From positions 34,668,082 to 34,732,081 of the forward strand of contig OY997645.1 in assembly GCA_963921795.1 (NCBI GenBank): a stretch of 64,000 bases of DNA. The letters run 5' to 3'. Under the pieces are notes generated by a model, which searched no databases, was not told the origin of the DNA, and was given only the letters and a program-made list of their open reading frames with translations. This DNA comes from Nannobrachium achirus. Taxonomy: Eukaryota; Chordata; Actinopteri; Myctophiformes; Myctophidae. The position numbers were made by a program, and so were the translations under genes. This document shows, in pieces, positions 5,952 through 8,900 of the stretch. Each line of letters starts with the position of its first letter. Within the stretch, counting starts at the first letter, position 1.

Positions 5952-8900
5952 CTGTGATAGAAAACAAAGGAAGTGCAAGGGAAAAGATTAGAGGTTTGAA
6001 TACTCTACTTTAACTAGATTAGTTAAACCACTGCATGTCGGGGACTTATCTACACTATGCCTGCAAAGCTATGGACATTGAAACTCCACACTTGTTAGTA
6101 GTGCAGGCAGAGGACCAAGATCATGGAAATGGGGGGCTGAAATGTAAAGTGAAATAAATGGATGGAGATGACACCATGAGTTGTGGGATAAAAGAAAAAG
6201 AAGAAAAAAAAAAAGATAAAGAAAATGTAAAAAAAAAAAAAAAAAAAAATCAAGAAAGCAGAGCAAATTAAATAGGTTAATTAAATAGATTAAAAAATCA
6301 AGGACAGAACGATATGCTGAAAAGGCCACTAAAACAATGACAGAAAAATGATTTAAACCATATGAAAAATGAGATATGGAAGGCCAGTATAGGTGATGGG
6401 GCAACGACACCCACGCACATGCGATGCGTGTTGAAAAGTGAGAACAGATGGATACCCGAAACTGCCTCTACGAATGGTGCGCACTTTGGGGACATCTGGA
6501 GATGGGAGGTCAGGGATGGTGTCCAAGGGCTGGAAATAAGAGGAGTGATAGATGTGGGAGGACTGAGGACCAGTGGCCACAGAGCTGGGCGAGCAGGATG
6601 AGGAGGAAGACAGAGACTGAGGATTTGGGTCGGAGCTGCAGATGAGAGAAGGGTGCGAAACAGCCGAGGAGAGGGGAGGCAGAGACAAAGTCTCAAATTG
6701 TCCAATAGACTGGCTGCGTGACTGTCTCAAGGTAACCCTAGACCGGGATGGGTGGGTGGTTCCCTCTCCCTGGTGCCCCGCCAACAGAGAACTCTCTACC
6801 AACCTCTGGGAGCCCATGGCCAGCTGCGGGTCAATGTGGCGTTGGCGCAGGGACATCATGCTGGGAGCTGTGGGCACAAAATGACAGCATCGTTAACAAT
6901 TACTCATGAATAAAACGTAATCTATGACTATAAACATAAATGGGACAAACACTGGGCGAGCAGTGGTACGAGACTCAGGTGTTGGGATTCATTTATTTAA
7001 AGCTTATGGTTTGCACATCTGTTAATCTTATGTTGCATTTTATTTTGTATAATTTCATATTTTGTTTTCTCGTGATTAGCTGTCGCCCCCTTATAAGCAA
7101 ACATCCTTATTAGCTGTAAGGATGTTTTGATTTGATAAAGGAACATAATTCCATTATGGGTAATTATTTTAATACATATTGCAGACTGCAAAGACTTGAA
7201 GAACTCCAACACTTTAGTCTTGTGTGTGCCACTGCATGGACAAAACGAACAAATACAACATGAGGAGAGAGCTTTGGGGATGGTACTGAAAGGTAAAAAA
7301 GTCTTGCTTGTCTTGTTAAGTGCATCTGCGAGGAAGGATTAAGTAAAGAAATAGTCATTACACCATTGCAAAAACAAGTGTAGAAAGGGGTGGATAGAGG
7401 TGGATAGATTAAGAATCATTCAAAGCAAGCAGTGGAAGAGAAGGTCAGGGGTGTTTTGAATGAACACAGCATTTAGTTAGCATTTGCTTTCAGCCGTTTC
7501 CATCTACATGGCCTCGTCCCATTAATAGCAGAATTAGGTGCTGTGTAGCTTTGACAGGAATGACTCAAGGTAAGAGATAAGGATGCCGAACTCAGGACGG
7601 AGTTCGACCATGAATACAGTAAATGGCCAACCAGAGTATTTCCACAGGGGCTGGCAGTCTGAACCCACAGACCACATGTCACTGGCTCTGCGGTCCGATA
7701 AGAAGGTTGAATCTGTTGTTGGCCAATGACACAGTGGTGGAAGCCAAAGACCAGAAAAGTAATGGAGGGAGAGAGGGAAGTCAAATAAGGAGTGTAATCA
7801 GTGAGGATAAAAAAGACGTACTCACTACAGCAGTCGTTAATGGTTTCAGCAGTACAACTTTCCTCAGCAGTAAGTCAACCCTTCTGTTTGTGGCAATTTC
7901 TACCAACTAACAACCCATGTATTGCCCAAAAAACATTAATGCTCAGGAATTGTAAAAATTACAATTTGTAAAATGTAACAGCTTGGCAGTTGGCACAAAT
8001 GATATTATTTGTGTGAGAAATGGTGTCATAGTACCGGTAATGATTTTAAATGTTATGGGTCTCTGAAGAAGGAATATTGGGATATCAGATAATGCTTACA
8101 TATTCCATGTTGTGTTCTACCTTACTTGTTGGACTAACAACAAAAGCCAAGGAGCACACAGTAATAGGACACAACCACTACAAATACATCAGCACAAACA
8201 TTTGTGTCATTAAGAAGCATATATTTCATCAAAGTTGCATTCCATGAACATCGTTATTTTTGCATGTGGTTTTACCAAACCCATCCTCCATTCTTAATTG
8301 GGTGTCAAACACAGAATGACCCAATATGGAACATAAAACACATTCTCAAGCAAAACAAAACACAGTTTTATGAAGTTACAGTTCATATAATACAAGATGA
8401 CAACACTCATTCTCAGACACACAATCCCTATAAAAACAGGGAGGCCACAGTGATAAATTCAGGCAATGATTTGTTGTTTTCGAAATTTTCACGTCAACTT
8501 ATTTTTTGATTTCCCCAGTAGGCCCAAGGTGTGTTTAGGGCTTCGTCTGCTAGGGCCCACAGTGGAGCTGACCGATTCGTATGAAGTCTTACATTGCAGA
8601 GGAACGGACGGCATCAGGTCCTCGTCCAAGTCGTCCATGTCGTCCGTCATGATGAAGTGCTGCGGTGTAGCAACTCTGCCGCCCATGAAGCTGGGATCGA
8701 GGTTCAAGGCTGAGGTTAAGGTAGGCAGCCCTGGATTGTTGCAAATAGAGAAACCCGTGAGGAACTCAATCTGCTGCCAGCGATGCAGCCTCTCCCTCAG
8801 AGCAGCAGTCACTTCACCCAGGGCCTGTCTAGAGGGGACACAGATAAGGTGACAGACAGAAGAAATTAGTAATTGCATTGGAAATGGACCGAAACGCCAC

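Follow-up and report, generated by a model that had tools for sequence, protein, structure and literature searches.

A probable STIM1L-type extension of exon 11 in one stim1 gene of Nannobrachium achirus

Directly behind the short form of exon 11 in a stim1 gene of the fish Nannobrachium achirus lies a 348 nt stretch without a stop codon, and the question is whether this is protein-coding sequence corresponding to the insert of the mammalian splice variant STIM1L or an accident of intron composition. STIM1L was reportedly described by Darbellay in 2011. A later account attributes it to splicing on exon 11, with 106 residues at positions 515-620 (PMC4710697), and another paper reports finding nothing that resembles STIM1L in zebrafish in Ensembl 94 (PMC6471419). 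We consider that the stretch is probably a true 3' extension of stim1 exon 11, open to alternative use, and the fish counterpart of mammalian STIM1L. Judged from the DNA, what is probably new here is a STIM1L-type exon in a fish, contrary to the zebrafish remark; this kind of exon is itself already known.

The window, by which we mean the whole 64,000-nucleotide stretch analysed, spans positions 34,668,082-34,732,081 of contig C8 in a genome of 1.66 Gb in 564 contigs, and stim1 lies on its minus strand. The SOAR exons match STIM1 structures in the PDB (3teq, E 7.8e-57; all three chains listed are STIM1), and tblastn with a human STIM1 query places ten exons in order at E 1.8e-12 or better. We take these ten to be human exons 2-10 and 12. 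The number of exon 11 is as in PMC4710697. Exon 1 was not located in the window by the tblastn search with human STIM1, and the exon 11 match is weak (E 1.3 over 17 residues), so the identity of this exon rests on its position, its phase and a GSQR match. The features of interest are as follows, with a slash marking each splice junction.

8593-8828, minus strand: stim1 exon 10, covering the last part of SOAR and the acidic residues that follow; donor AAT/GTAAGA.
6804-6867, minus strand: the 64-nt short form of stim1 exon 11, encoding 20 residues flanked by S and R; acceptor CACAG/CTCCC at 6868/6867; donor GAG/GTTGGT after 6804.
6456-6803, minus strand: putative extension of exon 11 of the STIM1L type, adding 348 nt or 116 codons, open and in phase.
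6798-6806, minus strand: predicted short-form 5' splice site GAG/GTTGGT, weak by a weight matrix.
6450-6458, minus strand: predicted long-form 5' splice site CGG/GTATCC, weak by a weight matrix.
5444-5951, minus strand: stim1 exon 12, the last coding exon; acceptor CACAG/GGACC at 5952/5951; P/S-rich region, TRIPQL stretch, lysine-rich tail and stop.

The initial annotation had given the short exon as 6867-6804, with a second donor at 6456 adding 348 nt, and this is correct base for base; its further statement that the phase for exon 12 is unchanged also holds, as both forms, on reading the sequence, enter exon 12 in one frame and share its stop codon. The first base of exon 12 (5951) completes a split codon in either case, for R in the short form and G in the long. 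The 116 extra residues follow the SOAR/inhibitory region and precede the P/S region; they are Ser/Pro-rich, with a 15-residue basic stretch and a 19-residue tail segment, and the protein after them is P/S-rich, presumably EB-binding, and lysine-rich. The frame of the long exon has no match in the PDB at E<=10, and no relatives were confirmed in viral contigs or, for the exon, in bacterial or archaeal genomes.

The alternative to be weighed first is that a GC-rich intron start happens to carry no stops after exon 11 and that no protein is made from it. A run of 116 stop-free codons had been held unlikely by chance, which was overstated: when the 348 nt are shuffled 20,000 times with dinucleotides preserved, the required frame stays open in 7.1% of cases and some sense frame in 20.3%, and we rejected the open frame as proof of coding as too weak. 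A chance origin would also accommodate a second, overlapping minus-strand frame open for 142 codons (6298-6726), the weakness of the long donor described below, and the absence of a period-3 signal, which was sought in two ways. The base-by-codon-position chi of the extension is 7.1; 31% of 5000 shuffles score at least this high, as do 32% of 994 off-exon windows. A positional base model gives the extension frame -14.2, and two of the five remaining frames, which run from -12.6 to -33.2, score slightly better. The Ser/Pro richness of the predicted protein may mask such a signal. Even so, the positional comparison does not speak for the extension, because exon 12, held out from the same model, scores -7.8 and still exceeds its two alternative frames by a wide margin (-81.7 and -37.7).

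Base composition is likewise compatible with chance in one respect. The GC content is 0.566 in the extension and 0.406 and 0.357 in the flanking intron, and a GC content this high is matched in 6 of 994 off-exon windows, 5 of these clustering at 12.0-12.6 kb in a region of tandem arrays. A GC boundary at the long donor was considered and rejected, the change point lying at 6378, 78 nt beyond the donor, and the richness thus runs on past the predicted exon end. Elsewhere in the window, a telomere-like GGTTAG(GG) repeat array at 12354-12514, within a stim1 intron, adjoins a GC-rich tandem array at 12216-12340, and a long (CA)n microsatellite at 17993-18247 shows in open reading frames as His-Thr and Cys-Val repeats. 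The extension itself has one DNA match in the genome (one candidate scored) and one protein match at E<=0.001 (best 16 candidates), and nothing among these best candidates suggests a dispersed repeat.

Synonymous-codon preference, a measure that ignores amino acids, favours coding in the extension frame. It is 0.105 per codon in the extension, within the 0.031-0.41 spanned by 11 held-out stim1 exons, and falls to -0.366 in the same frame over about 34 codons just past the long donor. Against a chance frame, a value this high occurs in 79 of 5000 dinucleotide shuffles, and 14 of 2976 off-exon frames attain it; on the other side, among the 23 off-exon frames without a stop, 2 are as high. By halves, the second is reached by 2.8% of 3000 shuffles and the first by 20%, which is not significant by itself.

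Comparison with the mammalian insert was made through a provisional sequence. No paper was found carrying words of this sequence, and the mammalian insert was not found in a literature or PDB search. The human insert used for alignment is thus provisional; it was written down after the fish sequence had been seen and differs by two residues from the published length of 106. Its alignment with the extension covers nearly the whole insert, with a local score of 83 that none of 2000 shuffles reaches (maximum 74), and among the 312 stop-free stretches of at least 60 residues in the window that of exon 11 is the one with this score, the next scoring 52. Taken by part, the N-terminal alignment is reached by 8 of 5000 shuffles and the C-terminal by 33 of 5000; tblastn with the provisional insert gives E 0.019 unfiltered, and the tail alone E 7.2 with low-complexity filtering. 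Both carry SRVxLRxxRSxSxGQ towards the start, and towards the end both carry YH(H)S(T)SYF....(Y/I)PDxPxxD. The provisional human insert enters after GSQR and before DL, as does the fish extension, and ends in Gly then Asp, as the 6456 form does; it presumably also contains a poly-Thr run, which the extension does not have.

Extension and STIM1L insert share the same exon, a place between the SOAR/inhibitory and P/S regions, and a similar length (116 residues in the fish, 106 in mammals). That the exon is lengthened here as in STIM1L, as the initial annotation proposed, is well supported by position, phase, length, codon preference and the alignment with the provisional insert, and the last of these makes homology with the STIM1L insert a strong lead, short of a test. 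An origin before the fish-tetrapod split appears likely, as judged from that provisional sequence alone. With the same exon, a similar length, a near full-length alignment and the codon preference all set against it, we regard a chance open frame as unlikely.

Exon 10 finds four stim genes in the genome, at 100% (C8), 66% (C15), 52% (C14) and 45% (C3) identity (four matches among six candidates), and from these values we infer that C15 carries a second stim1 and that C14 and C3 carry stim2. Four genes are as expected of a teleost, zebrafish having stim1a, stim1b, stim2a and stim2b (PMC6471419). The C15 gene (56.59 Mb) has the same exon 11/12 organisation as the C8 gene and an identical short-donor 9-mer, GAG/GTTGGT (in the context CAGAG/GTTGGT), behind an exon 11 of 46 nt; the intron 11 that follows measures 80 nt, its limits being set by sequence only. 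The C15 gene has no long form, because so short an intron leaves no room for it. The proposal that teleost stim1 keeps the extension accordingly holds, in all probability, for the C8 copy at most and fails for the C15 copy: only one of the two stim1 genes in this fish has it.

A relic of the extension was sought in 30 kb at C15 (one 10-kb piece of which contains 2837 N), and the search gave a single weak tblastn match (E 0.088, L007), which lies on the strand opposite to the gene and was taken as chance. In 20 kb around each stim2 gene there were three weak matches at C14 (E 0.46-0.92) and none at E<=1 at C3, which we take as no counterpart. The C15 locus has some peculiarities of its own. Exon 10 is flanked by two sets of tandem arrays (L006:528-807 and 1004-1138) that resemble its own edges: before it stand 30-51 bp units with acceptor-side sequence such as GTCAGACAGGCATT, and after it 3.8 copies of a 34-bp unit holding the exon 3' end and donor CTCTGAAATGTAGG, such that the arrays yield several candidate splice sites of nearly the same sequence. 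In the L006:2831-3200 locus, exon 12 has diverged strongly and is apparently split; a further open stretch, which ends at 3806, encodes the basic tail LNKMFRKRK. Directly behind its first part, a tandem array of the TTAGTGTGGTTG type occupies L006:3207-3516, with an 86-bp unit and 99% matches over 3238-3513.

If the extension is ancestral, the C15 copy has lost it; if not, the C8 copy has gained it. A gain confined to the lineage of the C8 gene and convergent with mammalian STIM1L would account for the mere 80-nt intron at the C15 site and for the reported absence of a similar sequence from zebrafish (PMC6471419). Against it stand the use of the same exon and the alignment of the provisional human insert at both ends. 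Gene duplicates, moreover, commonly lose parts unequally, and we think such a gain quite improbable. On balance we lean towards a STIM1L module that was already present in the ancestor of bony vertebrates, over 400 million years ago, and was divided unequally once the teleost duplication had occurred: the C8 copy would have kept a regulated long form and the C15 copy would have lost the module and nearly all of its intron yet kept a now pointless weak donor. The paralogues would then form a natural experiment, with and without, on the actin-tether isoform. In the text examined of a 2026 paper, the STIM2.3 event is called more recent than STIM1L, STIM1A and STIM1B, and the age of STIM1L is not stated there (PMC13143212).

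Donors were scored with a vertebrate weight matrix, the comparison donors being the best GT within 4 nt of each tblastn exon end. The matrix gives 1.01 for the short donor, -1.94 for the long one and 1.8 to 5.31 for eight other stim1 donors. The long donor at 6456 is the top scorer of the ten in-phase GTs able to extend the exon in open frame (next -4.01), and its score is equalled by 20.4% of 4114 minus-strand GTs. Two weak donors are compatible with a regulated choice and are no proof of one. A single GCATG lies 33 nt beyond the long donor and there are a few YGCY; we give these no weight as evidence of tissue-specific splicing signals. A literature search on splicing regulators of STIM1L found no paper. 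Highly doubtful, finally, is a real extension ending instead at CAT/GTGCGT after 6419 (385 nt), whose donor scores 1.65, above both the short and long donors, in DNA that stays GC-rich to 6378, but which is out of phase with exon 12, would give a frameshifted tail that is not STIM1L-like, and has against it both the low codon preference already found just past 6456, over about 34 codons, and the ending in Gly then Asp that the provisional human insert has in common with the 6456 form.

For an extension that ends at 6456 the following scheme may be proposed. Two weak 5' splice sites would compete, use of the proximal GTTGGT giving ordinary STIM1, and its skipping in favour of GTATCC at 6456 giving a protein with 116 added residues ahead of the P/S-rich tail. 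These residues probably form a Ser/Pro-rich linker, disordered and with a basic stretch, and a 14-residue segment of the linker's tail would sit where the actin-tethering residues of the mammalian protein are. Residues 589-599 of STIM1L, by provisional numbering, are what we take to be the second shared stretch, opposite the 19-residue fish tail segment. Deletion of these residues hinders actin tethering (PMC4406124). The insert would leave the Orai-activating domain untouched, and its effect would most likely be on anchoring of the sensor and its clustering with Orai at ER-plasma membrane contacts, rather than on Orai gating.

A role in fast calcium entry in muscle had been suggested for the fish form, and the equation of STIM1L with fast entry is disputed even in mammals: the earlier view, as given in PMC4710697, is of rapid activation, whereas PMC4406124 has STIM1L restoring robust but not accelerated SOCE. 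In zebrafish muscle both stim2 isoforms are reported to predominate (PMC6471419). Our literature search found no paper joining STIM1L with teleosts, and STIM1L is absent from the best 8 of 7,919 papers in a species literature search. If the long form is transcribed, STIM1L would be no mammalian invention, and the remark that zebrafish lacks it, as given for Ensembl release 94 in PMC6471419, would need qualifying. A fish with one stim1 with the module and one without would then also let the disputed role be tested, namely fast, pre-clustered calcium entry against the trapping of Orai without ER remodelling.

Like the putative fish extension, STIM1A and STIM1B alter this C-terminal region of STIM1 by splicing, but the fish form differs from both in how the added residues would be obtained. 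STIM1B has an exon of its own, located between exons 11 and 12 (PMC13143212), and STIM1A inserts a domain at 492-522 (PMC9261457), whereas the fish form would lengthen exon 11 by choice of donor.
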